Assembly (NCBI GenBank): GCA_002104905.1
Contig: MCFE01000157.1
Coordinates: forward strand, 87,422 to 151,421
Length of the DNA stretch: 64,000 bases
Reading direction: 5' to 3'
Origin: Basidiobolus meristosporus CBS 931.73
Lineage: Eukaryota > Basidiobolomycota > Basidiobolomycetes > Basidiobolales > Basidiobolaceae
In this document: one piece after another, positions 1-64,000 of the stretch
Layout of the letters: each line of letters begins with the position of its first letter
How positions within the stretch are numbered: the first letter of the stretch is position 1
The notes under the pieces: generated by a model
The model's input: the letters and a program-made list of their open reading frames with translations, nothing else
What the model was told of the DNA's origin: nothing
The model's database searches: none
Program-made: the position numbers and the translations under genes

Positions 1-1640
1 TCTCAATGCACTTTCACTTATTTGTGCAGATCTATCTGGCCAATACTTCCAATTGCCTTATATGGCAAGAAACTTGATGGTCCTCTGCTGGCCTCATTGC
101 TAACCTCTGCTGGCATTATCACAGCAGTACAGTGCCCTACCAATAGCTCTGTATAATGCTGCTGTACTAGTTTACCAAATGGTATTTTCCATTTCTACCT
201 TGCCTTGCACCATTTATATATTCCACTGTAGAATTACCACTTCTTATTTGCTTACTCACTACTTCCTTGGGTATTTTACCTACAGTTTGAATCAGAAAAA
301 AACTATTGCCTCCTGCTTACTGACCTCTACATGCATGCATGCCTGCTGAAATTGACACAATCTATAACCTCAACTTTACAACTCTTTAGTGTGATATTTA
401 CAGAGTTGCCATATATCTTGTATTACTGCTAGCATATACATCTTACAAACATATGCTTGGTTGCTGCCACTTTTGCAATAAATACCACCTGAATATTTGC
501 AAAAAGCCTTATGGTATTTTGCCAATATGTTCCTTCTCCCTGATAAGGTCTAGTCCCCCTAGTAGGTGCATACTGGCTCATGTTTGTGGGGATGCTCTAT
601 TGAATAGCACAGAAATTAGCTTGTGATCAGGAGAAGCCTGGCATACTTTGGTGGAGCTGTGTTGATGAAAATTAGTTTCTTGTTGCACTAAACCTAACTC
701 TGCATTACCTCACTGATTACTGATGCATTGGGTCTGCTTAGATTCATATTGGCAAGGACATAAGTGTCTTCATATGCACATCTGTCCTCAGTATTTCTCA
801 ACTCTTGCTGGCTGTCTTCCATGTCCCAATTCATTAAATCCCTGATAGACTTGAAGGTAATACTCTTAATGAGATTAGGATATGGCAGTGTCCTGCAACT
901 TGACTTGTACTCCTATCTCCTCACACATCTGCTCCATAGGAAACTTCCATAAGGTGAGGCAAGGCTTAGCACACCAACACCACACCAAGCAAGATGGGGT
1001 ATAGAATGGAAACAGTAGCTGCAGCAATCTGTGAACTCAGCTTTATGCTTGTTGTATGGCTGCTCAAGTCCTGTTACAAAGCCCTTGCATAAAAGCTGTA
1101 GATGTGTCAAGTTACCATTAGTGATCTACTTCTAGTAAAATATTTCTACAACATCAACATATGACTCTCAATGCTTCCAGTATACTCTTGGTAAATATGG
1201 CATCAGAAGGCCACTTGAATAAACACACATCCATCTCAACCAGCCCTTGCATATGGGTGTCAATTTAGATTGGAGCTTGTGACAAGTACTTTAGGTAGCA
1301 GATACTGTGAAATATCTTGTCAATTCTTACAGATTTCTCCAGTATCTCAATGGGCTCATACTAATTGAAGTGGCCCATGCACACCTTGATCATTAGTATA
1401 GGGATATTGTGGAAAAGTAAATGAATTGCTTTCAGTGGAAAGCATTTGCTCTGACTTCTGAAGATTCCCTCTGCAGGAAGAAGATGCTCATAATGTTGGT
1501 ATTTGGATAATCATATTGTGTGAGAGCGATGGAGTAAATATCCTGTGTCTCACAAATTCAACAGCAATACCATCCATTGTGCCCAGAAAAGCCAGCTATC
1601 TTGCTGATGGCTGTGGTATCACTAATGCTCATAGTAACTG
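1..1640 (-). mobile_element. C-terminal remnant of a Tnp2/Plavaka-type DNA transposon
   Basis: Read on the minus strand, this stretch is a decayed copy of the 3' part of the Tnp2-type transposon at 13.4-15.1 kb. Matching blocks are 220-360 with 14940-15110, 760-1110 with 14200-14615, and 1240-1400 with 13430-13600. The frame 913-1110 gives a peptide clearly related to the one at 14226-14615 (both carry a KHKAE...CYC.HS..HLAWC pattern). No long open frame survives. The copy abuts a plus-strand R-gene copy at about 1640, the same head-to-head order seen at 10-15 kb, so I read the two as halves of one internally deleted element. Boundaries are approximate and the left end runs out of the window. 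Confidence 0.6.
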
Positions 1641-3930
1641 GTAAGTCTCTGCAGATCTGCAAGCTGACCACAATGCCCTGGCAGATGGGAATGTAGCAAA
1701 TGCAGTACCCTCAATTGTAGACCAGCAAGTGGCCATCCTACCTCTACCACCACCTGTATTGGCAAGTATTTGGTCAGCTCATACCAAGGCATTAATGATG
1801 CAATTAGGTTCAGTGGCTAATAAAATAGATTCAATGGACCAGAGAAATCAGGAAACAGTCCAGAAACTGGATGAGCAGATAATATGTAAAGAGCAGGCAA
1901 TATTCCAGGTAGAGAACTCAGTTTCCTTACTACACAAAAAGGAACACAAGTAGCTCAATGTAACAGCCAAGAATTGATCCATTACACAATATAAGAGTAC
2001 AGGAACACTGTACAGTTTTTGAAGCACAACTACTGTGCCCAAAGATAAAGCCCACAGAAAAACCTATCAGAGCATGGGTGGGAGACAATATGGTGTTTAT
2101 ACCATAGTTTCAAAATCAAAAGACATTGAAGATCCATGAAGCTGTTGAGTGCAATAATGAAGAGTGGGCTAATATACAAGAGGCCTTAAGAAGTCTAGCA
2201 TGCCATCACCTGAAGGTTGGCATACCATGTAACCATCAGGAACTGAGGGCCAAACAAAATGCACTTGACTTGTTCCATGAGCATTATTCTGGATTCAAAC
2301 AGGCAAACTGATTTTGGGCCAGCATTGGTATGCTAAGAAAGTATTGTAAGAATAGTAGAGATTATCAAAGGCAGAAGCACAAGGGTGCCATGGCTGAAAA
2401 CCAGCGGCTTCCTCAAGAGCCCTTTATAAGCAGGGCCAAAAGCTTCAGACAAGTGTTGAAGAGACATCAGGTAGCTGGAAGAGTGCCAATAAGGAAGAGG
2501 CAGGCAGACACAGATGCCCCAACACAACATTTATCAAAGAGAAAGTGTAGCTCCACTAAAGAATCACTCAGTCAAATTAGCACAATAACAGTGAAGGACT
2601 TGACAGTGATATAAACCCACAGCTTTCTCAGGAGCCTGTCACAAGTAGGGCCAGAAGCTCCAAGCAAGTGGTAAAGAAACATTAGGTTGGCAAGAGATTA
2701 CTAGCAAGGAGCAAGCAGGCAAAAACAGATGTACCAGTTCAGCATTCATTAAAGAGAAAACAAAGTACAATACAAGAAGCACTTGGGCATTAGTATGCTA
2801 GGAAAGTATCCCAAGAATAGCAGAAACTATCAAAGGCAGAAGAACAAAGGCATCAAAGCTAAAAACAAGTGGCCTGATCAGGTGCTTGTCACCAGCACAG
2901 CTAAAAGCTCCAAACAAGCAGCAAAGAGATGTCAGGTAGCCTGATGGGTGCCAGTTAGAGACCAGCAGGTAGAAACAGAGACATGTGCGGAGAATTTATC
3001 TCAAAGAGAATGTAATTAAATACAAGAGGCACTCAGTCACAGTACCAATGAAGGACTTAGCAGTGATAAAAGCCTGTGGCTTTGTCAGGATGCTGTCACA
3101 AACAGGGCTGATAATTCCTAGCAAGTGGCTAAGAACTGTCAGGTTGCTGGGAGAGTACTAACTAGCATCAAGCAGGCACAAACAGAATTGCCAGTGCATC
3201 ATTCATCATGGAAAAAAACAGAGTACAATACAAGAAGCACTCAGTCAAAGTAGCAGCAAAGGGCTTGGCATTGATAAAGGTAAAGGTGAGAGAAAAAGGT
3301 CTACCCAGCCAGACACCAGGAAGGGTGAGAAAAGTGCTGTAGTTCTCACCAATTAATGCCATCAGCCCAGAACATGCTGAATTCCATCACAGCCAAGAAC
3401 AGTTACCAACAAGATATCAGCCAGTTGAGTTACACTCCAGTGAGGTAGATGAGTTTACCAATAAAAGCAATTTGTCTACTACTTCCTCTATGTCCTCCAT
3501 TGTAGGCACAGTGAAGATTCAATTGACAGACAAAGTGACATCATCAAGAACTCAAGTGACTATCATTGTACCTAGAGTGGAATTTTGGAACATTAATAGG
3601 CACACCAAGAGGTTGCAGCACTTCTTTAAGTGCATTGCTCAAGAAAATGCACTTGAATATTACAAGAATTTATTGCAAAAGCTGGCAGTTGAAGTGCTAT
3701 ATCTTGCAGTGTCAACTGAAAACCAGGATGTACGGGAACTAGTGAATGAACAATTGCAGAAAGCTGCAGGGCTACTGCCAAAGCTATGGAAAAAAGTTAT
3801 TACAGCAGAAATACTAGTTGAGTGGTGGATTTTAATGGAGTTACTTGTGGAGTGTGCAGCTGGGATTAATATTAGTGTAGAGTATAGGGAATTTTTAGGT
3901 CAATACAATCGACAATTGAGGTACAACTGA
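1640..3930 (+). mobile_element. R-family gene, degenerate copy 1
   Basis: An unrecognised gene family found four times in the first 19 kb; this is the only plus-strand copy. Open pieces are 1729-1953 (a Gln/Glu-rich helical segment that looks like a coiled coil), 2126-2311 (with a conserved W.NIQEALRSLACHHL motif), 2330-2614 (basic, Ser/Gln/Lys-rich repeats around H-Q-V-A-G-R-V-P) and 3472-3930 (152 aa helical C-terminal domain with VEFWNINRHTKRLQHFF). Between them the basic repeat is iterated but broken by stops at 2640-3360. The matching pieces occur in the same order in the other copies, so they were once one long protein of perhaps 700 aa or more. No known domain is recognised. The copy lacks the N-terminal part present at 7671 and 11675. 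Confidence 0.5.
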
Positions 3931-5330
3931 AGCTTAATAGAAATAAATTAATTTGTATGGATGAAAAGTAAGAAAAACAGTTGAGTCAGGAAGTAAGGGG
4001 TATGAAAAAGCAGCAAAAGCCAATTGATGTACACAAATGTAGAAGGTGATTGACTGTCTATGGTCTCAAAGTGAGAGAACTAGCAGAGGACCAACCAAAA
4101 GCCACTTGTGTGTTGTTGTGATGAAAATTTTTTACAAACTTTTCTGATAAATATGGGGTGCATTAGTTTTCCACCATTTCTAACAGTGTCCTGATGGTAT
4201 CAATACCTCTTAGTCTCAGGACTTTATCTTTGTGATGGCCTTTGGATGAAACTATCACAAATATTTTTCATAGGGCTCTACCATCTTGCTTTGTGTCTAT
4301 TTATCACAATTTATCAGACTGCTCTTAACTGACCTATGGATCTCTGCCTTCTACCCAAAACTTGTGAGTAAGCTTATAAAGGAGTACCAACCATCTGTGT
4401 TACCCTGAGGCTTTCCCTGTCTTGTCCTCCCAAGCTGAAGATGCTTCATTGTTGTAAAGTTTTTGGCCAAAGCTGTATACACTGTATTATTCTTCCGGTG
4501 TAGTTTACAGCTGTACAGTATTGGGTCTTCAGCTCAATACTCTATCAAAGGACATCAAAGCCAGTACCCTTTGAAGTAATTCTAACTTATTTAAAGTTGA
4601 GGATTGTGGTTGAAAACTGTCTTATTGACAAATCCATGTCTTTAATACCCACACATTAGCTATTAGTATCTGTGGTAATGGAAAGTATTCCATTACTACA
4701 ATATCTCAAAACCACTATTGGACTCATTTCTTTATTTTACTTTTTACTATTGTAACACACAAGTGAAAGATCAAGAAATTCCATCTTTGAAGGACAAATA
4801 GTCCATACCCTGACAAGCAATCCACCCAAGAATATTATGTCATACAGAAAATGCAGTAGCCAACATATGTTTCAAATTACAGCTCATTTGAAGCAGTACT
4901 TAAGGAGTTATAACCAAAAGAGTCCAATTATTATATATACTATGCCTCTATTGCTAGGATTACTATGGTGACTTTGATTGTGTGTAACTTTTGAACCAGC
5001 AAGTGCAATCATGTGAAATTTCTACAGGTGCTGCACCCATGTTCAATCTGCACTACTGCAAAATTTAGCTTTAAATCACATGTATTGCTTGCGCAATTGC
5101 CAAAAACTTTGATCCTTCAGAGATTTCATATATATGACTTCCCCAGCTGAAAAATAAAGGAGAGCCTCTCTTTCCAGAACCTCCACACTATGATTACAAG
5201 TTTAAAGGTTATAAGACTTCCCCTGCATCACTTGAACTGTTGAGTATTCTGACTTAATTGGTACTACATCAGTGAAGAGACTACAAAGCTCATAAGAATC
5301 CAATCTAAGTTCTAAAAGAAAAGTACTACT
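3931..5330. other. Non-coding AT-rich stretch with no recognised gene
   Basis: No open frame of note on either strand and no recognisable repeat ends. Composition is AT-rich and almost free of CpG, like the transposon remnants on both sides, so it is probably old decayed repeat sequence. Confidence 0.5.
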
Positions 5331-10011: not shown

Positions 10012-11675
10012 AACACTATAGCCTTGTCTGTCAGTGGGATCTTCCCTCTGTTAACAATGGAGGATGTGGAGGCTGTGGTAGAAGAATTGCCTTTTTCAGC
10101 AAACTCATCTACCTTATTGGAGTGTAGCTCAACTTGCTACGCTTCCAACTCCTGAGAAAACAGCTGCTTTCTTGCTGGTAATTCTTCTTAGCTATGATGG
10201 GACTCAGTCTGGTTCTGGCTTATGGCATTAATTGGCAAGAGCTACAGTTTTTTAGCATGCCTCCCTGTCTCAGGCTTGGGTAAACATTTTTCCCATTGCC
10301 TTTTCCTTTATCACTGCCAGGTATTTCAATGCTACTTTGTCTGAGTGCTTCTTTTAAAGAACTATGTTTTCTCCTGAATAAATTCAGCTCTGAAGCATCT
10401 GTTTTGGCCTGCTTATCCCTTCCTGGCACTCTTCTGGCAGCCTGAAGTTTCTTTTCTGCTTATTTTGAGCTCTCACCATAGTTGTGACAGGCTCCTGTAA
10501 AAGGGGCTGCTTTTATCACAGCCAGGTCCTTCACTGCTACTTTGACTGGGTGCTTCTTGAGTGGTACTATGCTTTTTCCTTAATAAACATTGTGCTGCTG
10601 CATCCATGTCTGCCTGCTTGTCCCTAATTGGCACTCTTCCAGCTACCTGATGTCTCTTTGATGCTTGTCTGGAGCTTTTGGCCCTGCTTGTAATGGGCAC
10701 TTGAGGAAGCCGCTGGTTTTTAGCCATGGCACCCTTGTTCTTCTGCCTTTGATAGTCTCTGCTATTTTTAAGATACTGTCTTAGCATACCAATGCTGGCC
10801 CAAAATCAGTTTGCCCATTTGAATCCAGGATAATACTCATGGAACAAGTCAAGTGCATTTGGTTTGGCCTTGAGTTTCTGATAGTTACATGCTATGCTGG
10901 CCTTCAGGTGATGGCATGCTAGACTTCTTAAGGCCTCTTGTATATTAGCCCACTCTTTATAATTGCACTCAATGGCTCCACGGATCTTCAATGTCTTTGA
11001 TTTTGAAACTTTGGTATAAACACCATATTGTCTCCCTCCCAGGCTGTGATAGGTTTTTCTGTGGGCTTTATCAATGGGCACTGTTGTTGTGCTTCAAAGA
11101 CTGTACAGTGTTTCTCTGCTGTTACATTGGGAAATGGCTCAACTCTTGGCTGTGACATTGAGCTACTTGAGTTCCTTCTTTGCAGCAAAGATACTGCTTT
11201 CTCTATCTGGGATATTGATTGCTCTACATATATTATTGGCTCATCCTGTTTCTGGACTATTTCCTGATTACTCTGGGCCATTGCATCTATCCCACCAGCC
11301 ACTGCACCTAATTGCTTTATTAATGCTTTGGTATGAGCTGATAACATACTTGCTAATATAGGTGGTGGTGATGTTATCATGGCCACTTGCGATCTTCAAC
11401 AGAGGGTACTGCATTTGCTACATGCTCCTCTGCCTGAGCATAATGGTCAGCTTGTGGCTCTGCAGAGGTTCTTAATTGCCTACTTGACTGAGAGCCTGAG
11501 GAGTCTGCATTATTACCTTCAATGGGCACACTGTCCACAGGACCCTTTTTGGAATATAGTCCTGCTTGTTGCTCTTGAATGTCAAAGCAAGCTGTTGTCC
11601 AACCATTCTTCTGTTACCATCAGCAGTGGGGTTTGGTTGAGAACCAGAAAACTTTGCTTTAACTTTTGGCGGCAT
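10012..11675 (-). mobile_element. R-family gene, degenerate copy 3, head-to-head with Tnp2
   Basis: Minus-strand copy. Pieces in order are 11472-11675 (N-terminus MPPKVKAKFSGSQPNPTADG), 10988-11386 (coiled-coil region; QKQDEPIIYVEQSISQIEKA), 10806-11081 (KEWANIQEALRSLACHHLK), 10473-10787 and 10220-10429 (basic Ser/Gln/Lys repeats with RVP.RD.QA.....). It starts 223 bases from the Tnp2 ORF at 11898 on the opposite strand, so the two could share a divergent promoter. The gene is broken by frameshifts. En/Spm-type elements are known to encode two proteins, a transposase and a DNA-binding partner. Whether R is such a partner is inference. Confidence 0.55.
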
Positions 11676-11897
11676 ATATATGGAAGTGAGTCAAACCAAA
11701 GTGAAAATAGTGTTACATATACATGTTTATGCGGTGCCAAAACTTTATTTATAATGCTTACTATGGTGGGTCATCATTAAATCTTACATTTATGTAGGTA
11801 AAATGTCTGAAATACATGACTGTCTTAAGTTCACATGAGTATTGACCAAAAAGTGATATAATAGCAATATATTGTTGAAGGTCAAACTGTTTGCCCC

Positions 11898-13745
11898 ATG
11901 GACAAGACTACTTTGACTCAATGCTATAAGAGAAGTGAAAAAAGGCCATGTGGCTATTGTGGCAAGCCTCTCAGCCATGAAGCACACCAATCACATAGGA
12001 AGTATTACAAGGATCACAGCCAGTGTTTTGCCACCCAAGTCATAATTGACCATTCATTGGTCACAACTGTACCAACATTATCTTGCCAGCCAGTTGATAC
12101 TTCTATATCAGCACCTGGCCATCTCTGTCACCTTGCGCAAACTGAGTCAGGTGAGTTTGTTATGCCTTTAGGCTCACCTCAGCCTTCTGAGTATGGTACA
12201 CATAGTGATAGCTGTGACAAAGAAGGGTCACTTATGGATTTTGACCCTATCTCCCCTAACAACAGTACCATGTATGAGCCCAGTCAAATCCCTGTATTCA
12301 ATGAGACAACACCTGTTGAAACAAATGACAAGGATTCTTTATGGAGCCAAGTGAGCCCAGTAACTCATCTACTGGTGAATGATGTAATGTTGTGGCTAGA
12401 GAAGTGACATGTTTCCACTAATATCAGTAATGGGGGCTTTGAGGATTTATTACTTCTTCTTGCCAAAATTATACCAGATGCAACTTACCATGTACATGGT
12501 ACAAGTGGACAGCCATCATGCAGCTGGCAATGTATGATCCAGAGACTGTCCTGATTCCAGCATGTGTTAATAGTTTCATGGCATTCACATCCAAAAATGC
12601 TACCATTGCAATTTGTCCAGATTGTCAGGTATCCACCACCATTGAGGGAAAACATTGTTCACACTCCAGATATATTCAGGTCATATCCCATCTGATGAAG
12701 CTGATGCCTTCCAACAAATATTGCAAAGCTATACAGTACAACACTCAGTATCATTCAAGTGCAAACATATTTGATATATTTGATGACAAACATTACGAAC
12801 AGCTAAGAAGCAAGGGCTACTCTGAAGGTATGTATGACCATGCCTTTGCTTTAGCACTTGATGAATTCTCATTAAGCAAGTACTCTACCAGCAAATCCTG
12901 CTGGCCACTGATTCTCATCAATCTGAATCTGCTGCCCATCTTACAGTATCAGAGTAATAATCTGATGGTAGTCTCACTGGTATCTGGGCATAAATCACTG
13001 TCCAACCTGGATAGCTACCTGTATCCATTGCTGGATGAACTTTGCATGCTTTCCAGCAGGATAACAGTAAATGACCATCATGTAAATGAGCATATGTTTA
13101 TCTGCATTGGAGATACCCCAGCCATCAGCAAGATAGCAGGTTTTTCCAGGCTCAATGGATAGTATTGCTGTCAACTGTGTGAAATCCAGGGGATTTACTC
13201 CATAACTCACACACATTACTATTACCCAAACACCAGCACTAAGAATATCATCTTTCCACTGAGGGAACATACATAAGTCAGCATGCAATTGCAGCAAAGT
13301 TGGCAAGCTATAAGCCATCAGTCAGAATATGGAATATAGAATCAATCAAAAACCAAAGATACTTCAGATAGAGGGTATCTGTTGGAGCAAAAGCTCTCCA
13401 CTGGGAGCAACGCATTTGCTTTTCAACAATATCCATATATTGATGACCAAGTTGTACATGGGGCATTTCAAGCTAATTGAGCCCTTTGAGAAACCAGAGA
13501 AATTTGAAAGCATTGGCAAGATATTATAGAGTATCTGCTACCCTAGGTACTTCTCACTGTCTCCAATTAATATTCATACGCATATGCAACAATACAAATG
13601 CAAAGACTGGATGAACTGGATATGTATTTATTCAAGTGGTGTTCTGAAGCCATTCCTACCAAGAGTACATTGGGAGCATTGGGAGTCATATGTGGACATT
13701 CTAGGAACATATATCCACCCGCAGGACCAAATTATTTTTCATAGG
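11898..13745 (+). mobile_element. Tnp2-family (Plavaka/CMC) transposase, broken
   Basis: The first piece (11898-12407) starts with a Cys-Cys-His-His finger (CGYCGKPLSHEAHQSH), as is usual at the N-terminus of fungal Plavaka transposases. The second (12518-13162) carries the Tnp2 core: a YQ..FDDKHYEQL-like block, LDEFSLSK...SCWPLILINLNLLP, an SLVSGHKS..NLDSYLYPLLDEL block, and CIGDTPAISKIAGFSRLNG. Further pieces at 13329-13529 and 13584-13745 match the later part (WMNWICIYS.GVLKPFLP). Frames are separated by stops, so this copy is inactive. Tnp2/Plavaka belongs to the CACTA-Mirage-Chapaev superfamily. Ends and target duplications were not identified. Confidence 0.75.
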
Positions 13746-15283: not shown

Positions 15284-17275
15284 CCCCACCATTTGATAGT
15301 CCTTGGAAGCTCATGGCTTAGTCACTATTACCCTGCTATCAGTGGGTAGACCCAAACCCTGATATTCCCCAGAATCCACCATGTCAACTCCATGAAACCC
15401 CATCTTTTGGTCCTATCTACAACCTCTTGCAGCTTGAGTTGAAAGAGTTCCATAGCTGTATCAAAGAAAACCTCCAGAAAGTACTATTCTGCACTTTAAT
15501 AAGTCCCCCACTGGTGCACCAATTCTCATTATCTAAAAAAAGAATGGTACCCTCAGAATGTGTGTAGACTACCATACACTGAATAAGATTATAATCAAAA
15601 ACCAGTACCCTTTGCCCCTTACCAACACCCTGTTGGATCAGCCATAGTTGACCTCAGATGAGCTTATAATCTTGTCATGATCAAGCCTGGCAATGAATGG
15701 AAAACTGCCTTCAGAACAAGATATGATCACTTTGAGTATAAAGCTATCCCATTTGGTTTCACCAATGCCCCAACTGTCTCTCAACACCTGATAAATGACA
15801 TATTCCAACAATACCTTGACCAATTTGTGGTTATCAACCTTGATGATATCTTGATCTACTCCAAAACTCAAGAGGAGCATAACTCCTATATGAAGAAAGT
15901 CCTGACCAAGCTTGATACTGCTGGCCTCTATGCCAAACTGGAGAAATGTGAGTCTGAGCAGAAAGAGGTTAATTTTCAAGGTCATCTTATATGCTCAAAT
16001 GAAAAGAGAACTAACGCCAGGAATGTAGAAGCCATCCAGTCCTGGAAAACTCCAGGATATGTAAAAGAAATGCAGTCCTTCCTTGGATTTGCCATCTTCT
16101 ATCATAGATTCATTACCAACTACTCCAAGATAGTCACTGCTTTGACAAAGCTCACCCAAAACAGTCCACCCTTGGCCTGGAATGAGGAACAGTCTGAGTC
16201 CTTTAAATCCATCAAGGAATCATTCTTGTGTGCCTCCCTGCTTGCCCACTCTGACCTTGAGAAGCCTTTCATCATAGAAACTGATGCCTCTGACTTTGCC
16301 CTTCAATCTATCTTTTCCTAGTATACCAACTAGAACCTATAATACCCTATTGCACTCTAATCTTAGATATTTACTCTAGCAGAAACAAATTATGATATCC
16401 ATGACAAGGGACTATTTGCAACTACTGTTGCCTTTGGACAATGGAGATACTGCCCTGATGGTGTAGCTCAAACAATAAAGATCTTCAGCAACCACAAGAG
16501 CCTGGAGTTCTTTACTGCTGCATAAGTACTCAACCAAAGGCAAGCCAGATGATCCCTCTTCCTGGCCAGCTTTCCCTTTGTTATCACCTGTGGACTAGGT
16601 ATAAAACAAGGAAAACCATGTACCCTGTCCAGAAAGGTGGAATATTCCCTTGAAGAAGGGGATGATGCCTATTGGCAAATGAAAAGCCCTGTACTCAGCA
16701 AAAGACACTTTGAACTCCTTGCAATGCAGTCCTCCAGTATCATTACTCCCTTGCTCCTTGAGAATGTCAAGACCAGCCAAGCTGCCAATTCTACAGCTGC
16801 AAAATCAAGAAATATCTCAAGTCTTCCATTGACTAGCCACCCAAGTTCCCAAATCTCCAGTACCTGCATCTGTTCAATCACATCATCTACCACAAGCCTT
16901 AACCGCTTGCCCCAGTCCTTGATATGCAGTTGGATATCATCCATTCTTGCCATGATTCAACAGCTGCAGGACATTTTGCTGCTACCAAAACCCCCTATGA
17001 GAAGTTATTGTGATGAACCCATCAGAAGGCCATCACAAACTCTAAGTCCTGTAACTAAGAGGTATTACTCCCATCAGGTCACTGTGCAAAGACTGTCAAA
17101 AAATATGCACCCCAGATTTCATAAACAACTTAGTAAATATTTTTTTGCCACAACAATACAAAAGTGGACTTTGATTGGTTCTCTGCCAATTTTCTCACTT
17201 TCCAATCCTAGACACTCTATCACCTCCTATGTTTGTGTGCATCAATTGGCTATTGCCTCTTTTTCACACTCATGA
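15284..17275 (+). mobile_element. Ty3-type LTR retrotransposon pol remnant
   Basis: Reverse transcriptase is recognisable from about 15400 (GPIYNLLQLELKEF) through the open frame 15677-16321. Motifs in order are AIPFGFTNAPTVSQHLIND, VVINLDDILIYSKT (the catalytic box is NLDD instead of YLDD), HLICSNE, and a ....GFAIFYHRFI..YS connection segment. The start of RNase H (IIETDASDFAL) ends in a stop at 16319. Broken RNase H and integrase follow; HDSTAAGHFAATKTP near 16953-16995 looks like the integrase zinc-binding region. No LTRs were identified with confidence. The RT box change and multiple stops mean it is inactive. Confidence 0.8.
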
Positions 17276-58944: not shown

Positions 58945-59017
58945 CAAAGGTCTGGCTCTAATGGTATTTACATTTCAAATCATTGCATTCTCCACCACTC
59001 GATTGGATCAAGTAGAC

Positions 59018-59392
59018 ATGCTATTCAAACTAGCGGCTTTTCTGGTGTGTCTTGCTGTATCCTCCAACGCTTGGGATATTGACAAGGAGTTTACCCCGTG
59101 TCTGAAGGATGGTGGCCCCGGATTCAGCTATCCTGGCATTATGACCCTGACACCAGGCAAAAGCGGCGCACTAACGGTCTTTGGAAGGTCCAAAAGCAAA
59201 TGTCCTGCCATCTATTGCAAATGCAGAGTCACAGCTTCAGGCAGCATTTTGCCCCCAAAGCTGAGTTCTTTCAGCTGCATTGATGACAAAGGGTGCCGAT
59301 ATACTGGTGCAAATATGTTTGGTCTCCCTATGAGAAGGTTAGCAAATAAGGCGGGATGTGTTGCCGCAAACATTAATGAGTCCGATTGCTAG
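59018..59392 (+). CDS. Small secreted cysteine-rich protein, copy 2
   Basis: Protein identical to the 124 aa product at 55140-55514. Only silent changes were seen by eye (GTT to GTC in the VTASG segment and AAC to AAT in LANKAG). The signal peptide, eight mature cysteines and promoter are all retained. It is the last intact non-transposon gene before the telomere, about 4.4 kb from the repeat array. Confidence 0.75.
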   Translation: MLFKLAAFLVCLAVSSNAWDIDKEFTPCLKDGGPGFSYPGIMTLTPGKSGALTVFGRSKSKCPAIYCKCRVTASGSILPPKLSSFSCIDDKGCRYTGANMFGLPMRRLANKAGCVAANINESDC

Positions 59393-60534
59393 AATATGTG
59401 CCTCATCTTTGTTACGAAATAAATGATACCTTAGCTTATAAACTGTGCTATACTGAATGCCTAGTACATATGCACTAGCGGTTGCCTTGGATTCAATTCA
59501 AAACAAGCCCGGCTGCAGAGCTCTGAGTGGGTCGCCTATTGCCATCAAGCAATGGGATAATAGCCATAATGGATGGCAAAAGCTATAGCCTGCTAAATTT
59601 GTACCCTTGGTATCTCATCAAAGCAACTCTTACAAACTCGGAACAAGCTTGCACTCAGAAGTAAGAGGTAAATATACAGTAATTAAGGTTCTGATATATA
59701 TGTCATATGAGGGTACAGCTAAAAGGGCCATCACTACCATTCCCAGATCTTGGATTGCCAAAATATTATTGACAACAAGGGTAACATATACCACTCAATA
59801 GAATATCCAAAGTGCATATGAATACTTTTTTGTATAGTGGAGATCACTACTTTTAGAGACTTCACCATTGCACAGAATAATACTGGTCAAGCTATATTTA
59901 CTGGCCCTACAATATTTATATTACTTATTGCTAAAATGCACCATGAAAATTCTTATTTTTGTAAAATCATCATGGCTGTTACATGATGATAAGCAATCAA
60001 TAGGAGTGTTAATACCTCTGGAACCAGTGAGCCAGTAAACTGCTAGCTGGGAAAGAGTCTCACTCTTACTCAAATCCTTTAAAGAGGTACTATAAGCCTG
60101 TTGAACTTTGTGATCATAACTGGATATTTATCAGCTCTATCATTTGGATCATTGTCTATTAGTCTTATTGTATATTGCTTAAGTTCCTTGTAAAGATTTA
60201 GTATTCTTCACCGGAATGTCAGGCACTTGTTATATAAGAATTTAAGAGCCACCTAAACATCCCCAAACTTTTCACACATGCTTTTAGAACATTGCTAAGC
60301 ATATTTGCATGTTGTGTTGTCCACCATACCTGAGAGTATATATATCACTACACATTTGAGGTAACATTTAGTGAGAGCAACAGGACCAAACAGATTTCCC
60401 ATCAAGTTTTAATACTTCTGGAGCCTTTACCACTTAAGGCCTTTGAGCAGTGATAAAGACTAGAATAGATTAGAAAAGGCTTTAAGGTGTAAGTGTTATA
60501 GCAAGGGCTAAGATAAAGTTGCAAGAGCAAAGTG

Positions 60535-60731
60535 TTAGGGGAGGGAAAGTCAGCAAGATAGGTGAAGTCTTGAATTGAGCTCAGATAAGCTTAATTATAA
60601 ATAAAGAAGCCAGCTGGGAATGCAAGGTTCCCACAGGAATCACTAAGAAAAATATGAATGAATCTAAGCTAGAGTTTAGGCAGTATCCCCAAAAACACTA
60701 GAGCTCACATTCATGGGAGAGTGAAGCAGAT
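60535..60731 (-). mobile_element. Short 5'-truncated telomere-seeded retroelement tail
   Basis: It starts at TTAGGGGAGGGAAAGTCAGC on the plus strand and contains AAATAAAGAAGCCAGC. It is a diverged version of the 3' tail of the units at 60732, 62727 and 63247. Only about 200 bases long, it reads as a heavily 5'-truncated insertion on the minus strand. The stem in the terminal hairpin is imperfect here. Confidence 0.55.
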
Positions 60732-62726
60732 TTAGGGGGGAGACAGTCACCAACAGGTGAATTCTTTATTTCAGTTGAAACAAAGAAGCCAGTGCTACTG
60801 TTGTAGCTTTGATAGAAGAGTGTGTAGCTGAGGGGAATTTGTAGGTAAGTTAATAAGAAGTAATGATAGTTCTTCAGTGCTCAAGACACTGTTCAGTGGG
60901 AAGGGGGTAGCAAGAGAGGTAAGAATGACTTGTGAACAACATTAATGAGGGGAATGTGATAAGGATTGATATTCATCATAAAGGGAGTGTGCTGCTGCAG
61001 ATATTGCTGCCAAAGGTCTGTCAAGTACTTCAGGTAGGCCAGCTTGGGTTTTTCTGACTGAAGAATATAGTGAGCAAACTTCTTGACTTCAGGATCTCTA
61101 AGTATAGTTCTCCAGCAGGAGTCAGGTGTAGTGTGGTGTGTTCTCTTCCAGGCCTTAATCAGTGGGTTGTTGCAGTGGTGAAGTCTGAGATATAATCTGG
61201 TTCTGAGGTAGAGAAGTCTGATCTTATAGGGCATAAACCCAAAAGCACCAAGAATAGCATGTCTGTAGGGGCATTCAGGCAAATGAGGCACCAAGGAGGT
61301 AATGCACCATACTGCAAACTTGTCAAGCTTAGTGCAGTCTCTAGAAGTAAGAGAGAGAAGTGGTAAGCCAAATTCCAGGACAGGGAAGACAAACTGCTTG
61401 AGTAGAAGGAGGCAGCTGGGAGCTGAAGTTGTAGGAGGAGTAACAGCCAGTAGCTTGTGGAGTGCCTGTCTTGCCAGGATAATTCTCTTCTTCAGGTGTG
61501 CTCCAGAGTCTAGTCCAGTAGGAAGGAAAGGAAAGCCAAGATATGTAGCAGAAACCTGAGCAGGTAGAGTGGAGTTCTCCAAGTTGATGGGAGAGCCCAA
61601 AGGTACTGTCTTTGCAATGGAAAGCTGGAGATTATTCTTCTGCAGATACTGGTGGATGGTCTGGGAGTCTTGTTGCACATTGGAGGAGGATATTCTGATG
61701 TCATCAGCAAAGAGAGTAACCAGGCAGTCAGCTGAGAGTCTTGGGAAATCATTCAGGAAGATGGCAAACAGTATAGGACCAAGCACAGAGCCTTGAACCA
61801 CTCCATTAGGAACTGAGAACACAGCTGATTGCTCACTTGGGTGCAGAATTCTTGCTTGTGGATCCAGAAACAGAGACCTGACAAGGAGGGTGAGAGAGGT
61901 ACTGGAGAAGCATTGCAACTTGGACCAAAGCAGATTTCTGTCAACTGAATCAAAGGCCTTAGTAATATCAAACAGAACAGAAGGATACTTGCACTGGAGA
62001 GAGTGATCTTGGCTAAGTATGACTGCGTATTCCAAGGAGAGGCCAGGAACAAAGCCAAACTGTGCAGGATGAAACTTGAGGGAGTCAGAATAGAGCTCCT
62101 GAGCAAGCAGAAGCTCAAACACCTTTCTGCAGGTGGGCAGCAGAGATATTGGCCTGTAGGAGCTAGGATCCAGGTGCTTTCCTTTACCCTTGTACAGTGG
62201 CAGAACATTTGCAAAGGACCATTCCTCAGGAGTAGAAAGCTGGGCTGAGCATTGCTGAAATAGTGGAAGCAGAAGTGCAGACATGGCCTTGGTACTAGTC
62301 TTCAGAAGCTCATAGGAGATTGTGTCCACACCTGGAGCAGTAGAGTTGGGAAGTCTCTTGAGCACATTATGGATTCTCCCTTGATCAAGTGCAAGTGGGA
62401 TGGGCAGGGTCTTGAAGTCAGGATGAAAGCCAGGAGTTGAGTACTGCTTTGTAGAGAAGAAGATGTTAGCCAGCTGTTCTGTTGAAGGTAACCTCCTGGA
62501 AGAGGGCCTCATTGCCCTGTAGAGTCTTGATACTGTTCTTGTTATAGAGTTGGAAGATTGCAGAGGCAAAGAACTCATAATATGATCCCAGAGCTGAGTA
62601 TGCAGAGTGTGGTGAATTGCCTTGGAATGGTGTATTGCTGTCAGGAGGAGTTTCTCTGTTTTTGGGTTAGGGAAACTCAGGTAGCTTTGTTGCAGGGCTG
62701 AAACAATGGATTCCCATTTTTTTGAG
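60732..62726 (-). mobile_element. Non-LTR retrotransposon (LINE), 5'-truncated, telomere-proximal
   Basis: The sense strand is minus. The 3' end at 60732 reads TTAGGGGGGAGACAGTCACC on the plus strand, that is, the element RNA ends ...CUCCCCCCUAA next to a telomere-like seed. A 3' hairpin (stem TCACC/GGTGA) sits at 60747-60760. The reverse transcriptase frame is open from the 5' truncation at about 62726 to the stop at 60893. The 5' end abuts the tail of the next unit. Element 5' regions such as an endonuclease are missing. Confidence 0.8.
60893..62578 (-). CDS. Non-LTR retrotransposon reverse transcriptase (5'-truncated)
   Basis: 561 aa from an internal ATG; the same frame stays open upstream to about 62726, so this is the C-terminal part of a longer protein. 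RT motifs in order are APGVDTISYELLK (about 81-93), LPLYKGKGKHLDPSSYRPIS (126-145), FGFVPG (174-179), VLFDITKAFDSVD (201-213), GVVQGSVLGPILF (259-271) and the catalytic LFADD (289-293). A thumb and a C-terminal region without a recognised zinc knuckle follow. The family is R1/jockey/I-like in general form; the exact clade is not assignable by eye. No frame damage was seen in this part. Confidence 0.88.
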   Translation of the reverse strand: MSSLPLQSSNSITRTVSRLYRAMRPSSRRLPSTEQLANIFFSTKQYSTPGFHPDFKTLPIPLALDQGRIHNVLKRLPNSTAPGVDTISYELLKTSTKAMSALLLPLFQQCSAQLSTPEEWSFANVLPLYKGKGKHLDPSSYRPISLLPTCRKVFELLLAQELYSDSLKFHPAQFGFVPGLSLEYAVILSQDHSLQCKYPSVLFDITKAFDSVDRNLLWSKLQCFSSTSLTLLVRSLFLDPQARILHPSEQSAVFSVPNGVVQGSVLGPILFAIFLNDFPRLSADCLVTLFADDIRISSSNVQQDSQTIHQYLQKNNLQLSIAKTVPLGSPINLENSTLPAQVSATYLGFPFLPTGLDSGAHLKKRIILARQALHKLLAVTPPTTSAPSCLLLLKQFVFPVLEFGLPLLSLTSRDCTKLDKFAVWCITSLVPHLPECPYRHAILGAFGFMPYKIRLLYLRTRLYLRLHHCNNPLIKAWKRTHHTTPDSCWRTILRDPEVKKFAHYILQSEKPKLAYLKYLTDLWQQYLQQHTPFMMNINPYHIPLINVVHKSFLPLLLPPSH

Positions 62727-63246
62727 GTTAGGGGGGAGGAAAGTCACCAAGTGGTGAAATCTTTATTTACTTATGACAAGTATCTAAAGAAGCCAAGTTA
62801 ATCTGAAGTAATTCCTAGAAAGCTAGGTCTGAGAGGTATCTTCCTGGTAAGCCAGGTCTGAGAGTTGAGAAGCTGAGTGGTACTGTATTTCCTAGTAAGC
62901 TAGGTCTGAGAGAGGTTTCCTGGAAAGCCAGGCCTGAGAATTGAGAATCTGAGTATATCTGAGGTGAAGTGTACTGATTTGCGGTAGCTGATTTGTGGCC
63001 GGAATGGCCAGTAGACTGGGGGAACTGAGGGAAATATCTGGGCAATCACTGGCCAAATTTACTAGGCAAATCTGACCAATTAGCATTTCAAGGATTTCAG
63101 CCAATCAGAGCCTTTACTTTGCCCGATGGTTGATCAAGCCATCTCCCAATGAGCACACATCAATTTATTGATCAAATTTTGTTGGATCCAGGATTTGAAC
63201 CCACAACCATGGGTATGGAAGGGTTAGGGATAACCACAAGGCTAAG
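62727..63246 (-). mobile_element. tRNA-derived SINE-like unit 1, telomere-proximal
   Basis: A 520-base unit, sense minus. The 5' head has a pol III A box (TAGCCTTGTGGTTA, minus strand of 63231-63244) and B box (GGTTCAAATCC, minus strand of 63191-63201) about 30 bases apart, as in tRNA-derived SINEs. The body has four hairpins at 62814-62932. The 3' tail (TGGCTTCTTT ... AAATAAAGA, hairpin at 62744-62757, then CTCCCCCCTAA) is shared with the LINE at 60732. It encodes no protein. Confidence 0.7.
62814..62932. repeat. Four phased hairpins with alternating stems
   Basis: Stems CCTAG/CTAGG at 62814-62827 and 62891-62904, and CCTGG/CCAGG at 62843-62856 and 62919-62932, each with a 4-base loop and followed by TCTGAGA or CCTGAGA. 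The stem sequence alternates A-T and G-C at the same position while pairing is kept. The same four hairpins recur in SINE unit 2. Confidence 0.75.
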
Positions 63247-63767
63247 GGTTAGGGGGGAGGAAAGTCACCAAGTGGTGAAATCTTTATTTACTTATGACAA
63301 GTATCTAAAGAAGCCAAGTTAACCTGAAGTAATTCCTAGAAAGCTAGGTCTGAGATATATCTTCCTGGTAAGCCAGGTCTGAGAGTTGAGAAGCTGAGTG
63401 GTACTATATTTCCTAGTTAGCTAGGTCTGAGAGTGGTTTCCTGGAAAGCCAGGCCTGAGAAGTGAGAATCTGAATATATCTGAGCTAAGTTATACTGGTT
63501 TGCGGTAGCTGAATTGTGGCCGGAATGGCCAGTAGACTGGGGGAACTGAGATGTATTTCTGGGCGATCACTGGCCAAATTTACTAGGCAAATCTGGCCAA
63601 TTAACATTTCAAGGATTTCAGCCAATCAGAGCCTTTACTTTGCCCGATGGTTGATCAAGCCATCTCCCAATGAGCACACATCAATTTATTAATCAAATTT
63701 TGCTGGATCCAGGATTTGAACCCACAACCATGGGTATGGAAGGGTTAGGGATAACCACAAGGCTAAG
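63247..63767 (-). mobile_element. tRNA-derived SINE-like unit 2, last unit before the telomere
   Basis: A 521-base near-copy of the previous unit with the same two ends, so neither is 5'-truncated. A box at 63752-63765 and B box at 63712-63722 (minus strand). 3' hairpin at 63265-63278. The third body hairpin keeps the CCTAG/CTAGG stem but has loop TTAG instead of TAAG. The unit is followed by a few bases and then by the TTAGGG array. Confidence 0.7.
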
Positions 63768-63774
63768 TGTTCTT

Positions 63775-64000
63775 GGTTAGGGTTAGGGTTAGGGTTAGGG
63801 TTAGGGTTAGGGTTAGGGTTAGGGTTAGGGTTAGGGTTAGGGTTAGGGTTAGGGTTAGGGTTAGGGTTAGGGTTAGGGTTAGGGTTAGGGTTAGGGTTAG
63901 GGTTAGGGTTAGGGTTAGGGTTAGGGTTAGGGTTAGGGTTAGGGTTAGGGTTAGGGTTAGGGTTAGGGTTAGGGTTAGGGTTAGGGTTAGGGTTAGGGTT
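63775..64000 (+). repeat. Telomere, (TTAGGG)n
   Basis: About 37 perfect TTAGGG units without variants, running to the end of the window on the G-rich strand 5' to 3'. The orientation shows that the right end is a chromosome terminus. Confidence 0.98.

Follow-up and report, generated by a model that had tools for sequence, protein, structure and literature searches.

Stacked retroelements at the chromosome ends of Basidiobolus meristosporus suggest that mobile elements, alongside telomerase, extend its tips

Chromosome ends of the fungus Basidiobolus meristosporus CBS 931.73 carry stacks of retroelements capped by TTAGGG repeats, which suggests that mobile elements share with telomerase the extension or repair of the tips. 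One such stack occupies the last 3.5 kb of the window, a stretch of 64,000 nucleotides (contig MCFE01000157.1, positions 87,422 to 151,421 of the forward strand), whose position 64000 is the right-hand contig end. Four units with the sense on the minus strand are followed there by a telomeric array that runs up to the contig end, so that from the proximal to the distal side one passes from ordinary sequence into a piece of an element U, which codes only for a protein of the first open reading frame (ORF1), then into a 5'-truncated long interspersed nuclear element (LINE), two short interspersed nuclear elements (SINEs) and the telomere array. With a probability of roughly 0.65, such stacks would have been formed by terminal addition of non-LTR (non-long-terminal-repeat) elements primed from the G-strand of short or eroded ends, the new tips being re-capped by telomerase.

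60535..60731, minus strand: unit 1, the 3' 197 bp of the ORF1-only element U, 82% identical to U tails in other stacks
60732..62728, minus strand: unit 2, LINE, 5'-truncated, 1993 of about 4560 bp, 98.6% identical to the LINE of locus L069
62729..63248, minus strand: unit 3, SINE, about 9 nt short at the 5' end, 95% identical to unit 4
63249..63774, minus strand: unit 4, SINE, full length (526 bp as counted here, from its sequence and the 5' ends of other copies), adjoining the telomere
63775..64000, plus strand: terminal array (TTAGGG)n to the contig end, 37.7 copies, 100% match

An earlier note on this DNA had described four minus-sense units with TTAGGG-like seeds at 60535, 60732, 62729 and 63249, the last of them running directly into the telomere. 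All four seeds were found again, with the element tails at the proximal side, and the array at 63775-64000 is 100% TTAGGG. The reading of the units as LINE and SINE stood for 60732-63774, while unit 1 (60535-60731) proved to be U. Unit 1 is the oldest-looking part of the stack; it joins ordinary chromosomal DNA through GTG followed by TTAGGG, a junction read from the window sequence and standing outside the set of 144 junctions considered below. The proximal SINE, unit 3, ends with AAGGCTAAG. When LINE, SINE, U and a second ORF1-only element, V, were compared by BLAST with the whole 64-kb window, no match was obtained outside 60535-63774.

The distribution of these families was followed in the genome assembly (89.0 Mb, 1311 contigs), where tail patterns were counted at up to 3 mismatches and the same patterns read backward served as controls. 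The LINE tail was found 837 times (763 forward, 74 reverse), the SINE tail 461 times (427 and 34), the U tail 226 times (199 and 27) and the V tail 61 times (54 and 7); a SINE head pattern gave 242 forward and 12 reverse matches, and the backward-read controls of the four tails and the SINE head gave none on either strand of the whole genome. Pooled, 1443 of 1585 tails are forward, on the same strand as the telomere repeats, which in three-unit form matched 8002 times forward and 103 times in reverse (8002 of 8105; control 3 and 15). Elements and telomeres thus have the same skew, and contigs happen to carry the telomere at their right end. That telomere repeats stand almost exclusively at right-hand ends is probably a quirk of the assembler; at about 31 matches per 200-bp array they correspond, by our arithmetic, to roughly 260 telomeric ends. 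Reverse-strand tails, among the matches listed, lie mostly near left contig ends.

Positions relative to the ends follow the same rule. On contigs of known size 113 of 114 listed places, taken from at most about 100 matches each for the LINE, SINE and U tails and the SINE head, the exception on C726 not being among them, lie within 20 kb of the end faced by their 5' side, several of these contigs being short and some places repeating one stack; on contigs of at least 60 kb this holds for 53 of 54 listed places, at a median distance of 3.9 kb. One SINE on contig C80 lies 18 kb from the left end. Among the best-scoring matches, 86 of 89 SINEs are on the plus strand, the remaining three being at the left ends of C595 and C424, and 68 of 71 LINE reverse transcriptases are on the minus strand, the others being found at the left end of C1257, on the 13.8-kb contig C217 and, as an exception, on C726. 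Thus the concentration near ends and the single orientation expected in the earlier note are both present, and the opposite pattern, many interior copies in two orientations with ordinary target-site duplications, was not seen, while two interior stacks (C558 and C726) were.

Since assemblies break at repeats, repeats may accumulate at contig ends for purely technical reasons, and the 1311 contigs with their one-sided telomeres (8002:103) are in line with such an origin. It should, however, yield both orientations instead of the biases just described. A Ty3 reverse transcriptase taken from the window as a control is indeed distributed as 76 plus and 74 minus matches (150 scored of 2138 candidates), and all six of its copies on known contigs of at least 60 kb lie 19.5-73 kb from an end. 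Moreover, units of the stacks pass directly into perfect telomere arrays at about 18 ends. On the basis of orientation and the Ty3 control assembly breaks are rejected as the cause, and we regard this explanation as scarcely credible.

More can be learned from the junctions themselves. A set of 144 distinct tail junctions, three of them from the window, was collected from the window and from loci around the top-scoring matches (for the SINE 30 loci, 40 of 443 candidates having been scored; for the LINE 30 loci, with 71 of 1413 candidates scored; and the added locus L069); identical 210-bp junctions were collapsed before counting, and V tails and odd tails are absent from the set because the junction pattern demands the hairpin motif. 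At 136 of the 142 junctions that were parsed TAGGG directly abuts the 3' end of the element, in agreement with the junctions at TTAGGG foreseen earlier. The telomere tract between the proximal DNA and the element has a median of 10 bp and a maximum of 35 bp (n = 142), falling below 6 bp in 7 cases and within 6-11 bp in 82, 12-17 bp in 31, 18-23 bp in 9, 24-29 bp in 8 and 30-35 bp in 5. The run of G following TTA varies as well (3-10 with a mode of 6 for SINE, 4-10 with a mode of 6 for LINE, 3-6 with a mode of 4 for U), which fits pairing of GGG at differing registers of the C-run in the element RNA. Proximal to the junctions lie SINE (50), LINE (38), U (18) or other DNA (36, including V and unique DNA), and the sequence beneath the seed differs at almost every junction, being the 5' end of a SINE, any position of the LINE, U, V or unique DNA.

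Orientation by itself fits a free end as well as a nick in the G-strand as the site of priming; tract length discriminates between them. Were insertion random along the arrays of about 200 bp, long tracts would be expected; none of the 142 exceeds 35 bp, and this possibility is rejected. Insertion anywhere in the arrays might still be followed by breakage and re-capping of long inner tracts, so that only short ones survive, and inner TTAGGG tracts of more than three units are described as breakage-prone in Magnaporthe (PMC7367193). This scenario appears quite improbable, however, because the outermost and hence youngest recognised units at telomere-bearing loci already have short proximal tracts, from 5 to a maximum of 23 bp with a median of 10 bp, in a table of 19 tips in which L030 and L031 belong to one contig and L024 and L031 are not truly outermost. 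The distal arrays beyond these units measure 119-238 bp (median 199). Given arrays of about 200 bp, tracts of no more than 35 bp and outermost units that behave alike, either the acceptor was nearly bare or the base of the array is the target. The near-arbitrary acceptor sequence beneath the seed favours broken or truncated ends which received one or two repeats from telomerase and were then taken over by the LINE enzyme.

The other boundary of the units is informative too. Proximal LINEs stop at 33 different points within positions 62-4527, and five of 38 end at 4559-4562, which is taken as the full 5' end; among proximal U copies 7 of 18 end at 981-1022, and among proximal SINEs 35 of 50 reach position 526. 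In the window the LINE is indeed 5'-truncated, as had been proposed; full length, ascribed to both of its SINEs, applies to unit 4 and fails for unit 3. Nor is truncation a special property of the LINE: of the 38 proximal LINEs 5 stop before position 526, and of the 50 SINEs 13 stop before position 510, so the contrast between a truncated LINE and full-length SINEs is mostly an effect of length. Truncated units may be capped directly by the telomere, as found for LINE pieces of about 277 bp (L013) and a tail of about 40 nt (L044), for 100 bp of SINE (L024) and for 183 bp of U (L036). LINE 3' fragments of about 13-40 nt, each with its own TTAGGG seed, were also noticed at L019 (1416-1500) and L027 (2026-2052); they look like aborted additions.

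The 33 LINE breakpoints, all different, imply many independent events, and this bears on the idea that the stacks were amplified mainly by recombination (break-induced replication, unequal exchange) and not by transposition. Evenly spaced repeats of one tail on C324 and C2 do resemble tandem duplication. Yet the different breakpoints, together with the mixed order of units, need many independent additions, and identical 210-bp junctions had already been collapsed in the counts; on the strength of the breakpoints recombination is rejected as the main source, and we consider this reading very unlikely. As a separate observation, evenly spaced identical tails occur on C324 at 150706-151323 (150706, 150989 and 151272, spacing 283 bp), on C2 at 260106-260277 (260106 and 260226, spacing 120 bp) and on C96 at 10651-12815 (spacing about 530 bp), probably reflecting local tandem duplication or repeated addition of SINEs.

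What the four families have in common is their 3' end, which in the distal SINE of the window is located as follows.

63249..63312, minus strand: SINE 3' tail, two hairpins and a C-run abutting the TTAGGG seed (by folding; same layout in representative LINE, U and V tails)

In all four families the tail consists of TGGCTTCTTT, a hairpin, AAAGA, a hairpin with the stem CACC/GGTG and differing loops, pyrimidines and the C-run. The first hairpin varies in sequence among families with its pairing kept, and the two-hairpin fold is common to the one representative tail examined per family (z of -2.5, -3.9, -4.7 and -3.2). The SINE tail thus matches that of its partner LINE, and recognition of a stem-loop in a LINE tail by the ORF2 protein has been described (PMC4176376).

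The LINE is the family that codes for a reverse transcriptase. In L069 it is about 4.56 kb long and contains ORF1, split into two overlapping frames in this copy, and an ORF2 of 922 codons, the C-terminal part of which is retained in the window.

60893..62743, minus strand: 616-codon open frame, C-terminal part of LINE ORF2 with the reverse transcriptase (RVT_1 over residues 193-405, 90.7 bits, E = 1.4e-25); its first codons extend into the neighbouring junction

The reverse transcriptase exceeds the cut-off of 29.6 bits by far (RVT_1, 90.7 and 89.8 bits), and among its solved relatives is L1 ORF2p (E = 5e-13). The only other Pfam matches of ORF2 are weak ones to endonuclease families of the apurinic/apyrimidinic (APE) type, below the cut-off (PF14529, 21.1 bits; PF03372, 16.1 bits). 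Aligned by eye, the endonuclease part keeps the GDLN, Tyr, Asp and SDH positions, and has Asp in the place of the usual catalytic Glu. This substitution raised the possibility of a dead endonuclease; the pN/pS (ratio of non-synonymous to synonymous polymorphism) of 0.11 in this domain speaks against it. The full ORF2 frame is present in 17 loci, 98.8-100% identical to one another, and its pN/pS in these copies, which were picked for open frames, is 0.15 overall and 0.06 in the reverse transcriptase; 70 of the 71 best-scoring reverse transcriptase matches have no stop. The closest named proteins belong to B. meristosporus CBS 931.73 itself (P0005, 97% identity over 26% of the query), a second protein of the species (P0006) having 64% identity over 44% of the query. 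Relatives with 48-80% identity were met on short contigs. In L069 (3647-7345, minus strand) and other copies ORF1 and ORF2 lie in one frame separated by TGA CTA. The TGA is present in all 24 boundaries found, the following C being fixed by the search pattern itself; ahead of the endonuclease part ORF2 has no ATG, and a relative, P0001, begins with Met at this point. UGA CUA is a readthrough context, and judged by its sequence the boundary looks like stop-codon readthrough.

Both U and V code for an ORF1-like protein only. U is about 1.0 kb long, and its product of 242 aa can be aligned with LINE ORF1 along 101 aa at 34% identity (single-protein comparison, E = 2e-11); pN/pS is 0.34 in five complete copies, likewise picked for open frames, the frame being broken in the copy of L069. 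V is about 970 bp long with the frame open in four copies, and its protein is 43-45% identical to that of U over about 277 aa and about 30% identical to LINE ORF1. U and V, whose frames have stayed open at a divergence that leaves about 44% identity, look like a second origin of the arrangement known from HeT-A. In L069 (8994-9324, minus strand) the 5' part of the U copy contains tandem units of about 100 bp (CCATCCATCT..., TAATTTTCCTAACCC), like 5' monomers.

The fourth family, the SINE, has in its head, near the 5' end, two boxes of the Pol III type and, between them, a telomere-complementary segment.

63712..63722, minus strand: GGTTCAAATCC, box B in the head of the SINE at +53, fitting GGTTCRANNCC exactly
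63741..63750, minus strand: CCCTAACCCT, telomere-complementary, inside the head between the boxes (window sequence; part of the head pattern)
63755..63765, minus strand: TAGCCTTGTGG, box A in the head of the SINE at +10, differing from TRGYNNANNNG at one base

A stricter consensus of box A had no match and the loosened form TRGYNNANNNG was used; an exact box B is expected by shuffling 0.75 times per 64 kb. ARAGORN reported no tRNA in the window, and Rfam gave no match at E up to 1 in positions 59000-64000. The head is too diverged or is not a tRNA, and the element is putatively tRNA-type on the strength of the boxes.

Based on these data one can assume a telomere-dedicated community consisting of the LINE (ORF1 and ORF2 with a putative APE-like endonuclease and a reverse transcriptase), U, V and the tRNA-type SINE, in which the last three would all use the reverse transcriptase of the LINE by means of the common 3' RNA tail. 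A 3' end bearing TTAGGG would pair by its GGG-3' with the C-run of the RNA and prime reverse transcription, which would place the RNA 3' end on the centromere side and turn the 5' end into the new tip. Usually the acceptor end would have fewer than two telomere repeats, left over or freshly added; telomerase would then add TTAGGG to the new tip, whether full-length or truncated, and the cycle could be repeated. That one reverse transcriptase serves all families, that a free end rather than a nick primes the synthesis and that telomerase takes part is what we infer. For the last component, two stretches above the cut-off for the TERT RNA-binding domain PF12009 were found on C880 (40.5 and 34.7 bits), one of them containing TAG. 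Serial addition of units at the end or into TTAGGG arrays, as the earlier note had it, is supported in this way and extends to U and V; of the two sites, the end is favoured over the base of the array.

The main rival of terminal addition is endonuclease-mediated insertion in the style of TRAS/SART or MoTeR, which would every time strike the first one or two repeats at the inner side of the array, keep the distal array and leave a short inner tract. Such insertion gains from the putative APE-like domain with its GDLN and SDH motifs and low pN/pS, and a de novo truncated MoTeR1 is described one TTAGGG unit from the array base (PMC7367193). It requires, however, that the base be recognised by some cue other than sequence, because what lies beneath the seed is nearly always different, and we take it to be unlikely. 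The short tracts speak for terminal addition, though not to the point of proof against insertion at the array base.

Several points weigh against terminal addition. The putative endonuclease domain is under purifying selection, which a pure free-end mechanism would not require; array-base insertion, or the loss of ends with long inner tracts, could also give short tracts; six of the 142 junctions have no TAGGG; arrays may have been cut short by contig ends; and the evidence for stacks comes from assembled sequence. Two contigs have stacks in their interior whose LINE copies are 98-99% identical, the one on C558 being 98.7 kb into the contig. This C558 stack (contig of 218243 bases) extends over 95-99 kb from the left end, next to a Ty3-like frame, and is made up of a LINE of 1998 bp (99%), a U copy (97.8%) and a worn SINE fragment; (TTAGGG)2, looked for on the distal side, was not found. 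On C726, which is 69561 bases long, the stack occupies 56-60 kb and contains an inverted LINE (98.9%) and SINE. Fusions, relics or assembly joins could account for these interior stacks. Microhomology with the telomere tract at 41 truncated ends averages 1.6 bases and reaches at least 3 bases in 12 of them, against 0.76 and 6.1% for random joins, and is given little weight, since data and null were counted slightly unequally, one 10-base overlap is a parsing artefact and three cases represent a single U endpoint (9 of 38 without them).

LINEs that target telomeres have been found in a few lineages. SART1 and TRAS1 are LINEs of the APE type, and in Chlorella LINE copies of Zepp are gathered beside telomeres, as here. 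Close parallels by description, not by sequence, are HeT-A, TART and TAHRE of Drosophila, which form head-to-tail arrays at the ends by terminal target-primed reverse transcription, with gag-only HeT-A beside elements bearing reverse transcriptase and with selection on the gag gene (PMC5537684). The same combination is found here, as ORF1-only U and V with similar tails stand beside the LINE. Drosophila, however, is described as lacking telomerase and telomere repeats (PMC5537684), whereas the genome studied has the PF12009 matches, TTAGGG arrays and a SINE as participant. MoTeR1 and MoTeR2 of Magnaporthe oryzae, compared by description only, are similar in being confined to telomeres with the 5' end to the tip, in head-to-tail arrays with inner TTAGGG tracts, in 5'-truncated copies and in a non-autonomous partner sharing both ends, all beside telomerase (PMC7367193). 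They differ in the restriction-like endonuclease of MoTeR1 (PMC12857005), in place of which a putative APE-like domain and a separate ORF1 occur here, and in MoTeR2, for which the available part of PMC7367193 describes no ORF1-type gene, while the present system has ORF1-only partners, a tRNA-type SINE and more than 1000 tails. Instead of a single ORF with a C-terminal restriction-like endonuclease, as in the group of MoTeR, FoTeR and CNL1, there is a separate ORF1 and an ORF2 that matches RVT_1 and, weakly, APE-type families.

FoTeR of Fusarium oxysporum is likewise found only at telomeres, with the 5' end to the tip and more truncated than full copies; its endonuclease is restriction-like, its 3' tracts have 3-7 repeats, 4-55 copies occur per genome, and the available part of the account describes neither partner families nor a SINE (PMC12857005). 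CNL1 of Cryptococcus neoformans shares subtelomeric arrays with telomere repeats outside, truncation and occasional insertions elsewhere, and differs as a single-ORF relative of R2 and MoTeR for which the text available describes neither a SINE nor an ORF1-only partner (PMC12810828). SART1 and TRAS1 of Bombyx also target telomere repeats; SART1 depends on a poly(A) tail and a minimum of three repeats, in contrast to the tracts of mostly fewer than two repeats and the C-ended tail found here, and a partner SINE is not named in the part at hand (PMC7265360). Terminal units here do have repeats on both sides, which might recall the insertion of TRAS/SART inside arrays, but the proximal tract has a median of 10 bp. 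Zepp is also named among such elements (PMC10088271).

The fuller picture, to which we give even odds, is that of a telomerase-positive fungus with independently evolved ends of the HeT-A/TART type, where TTAGGG ends that are short or eroded would receive the LINE, U, V and the SINE through terminal target-primed reverse transcription, and one and the same 3' end would be served in turn by telomerase and by the reverse transcriptase of the LINE. A HeT-A-like arrangement with ORF1-only partners would then stand beside a working telomerase. In the open-access literature, several listings of which were partial, neither a telomere SINE nor any telomere element of Basidiobolus came to light, and the ORF1-only and SINE retinue of a telomere LINE looks new. 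With more than 1500 tails of four cooperating families in one genome, array insertion and end addition become testable on many junctions.

Apart from the terminal stack, the window contains remains of a Ty3-like element at 15662-17272 (plus strand), and related reverse transcriptase matches are plentiful and strand-unbiased.

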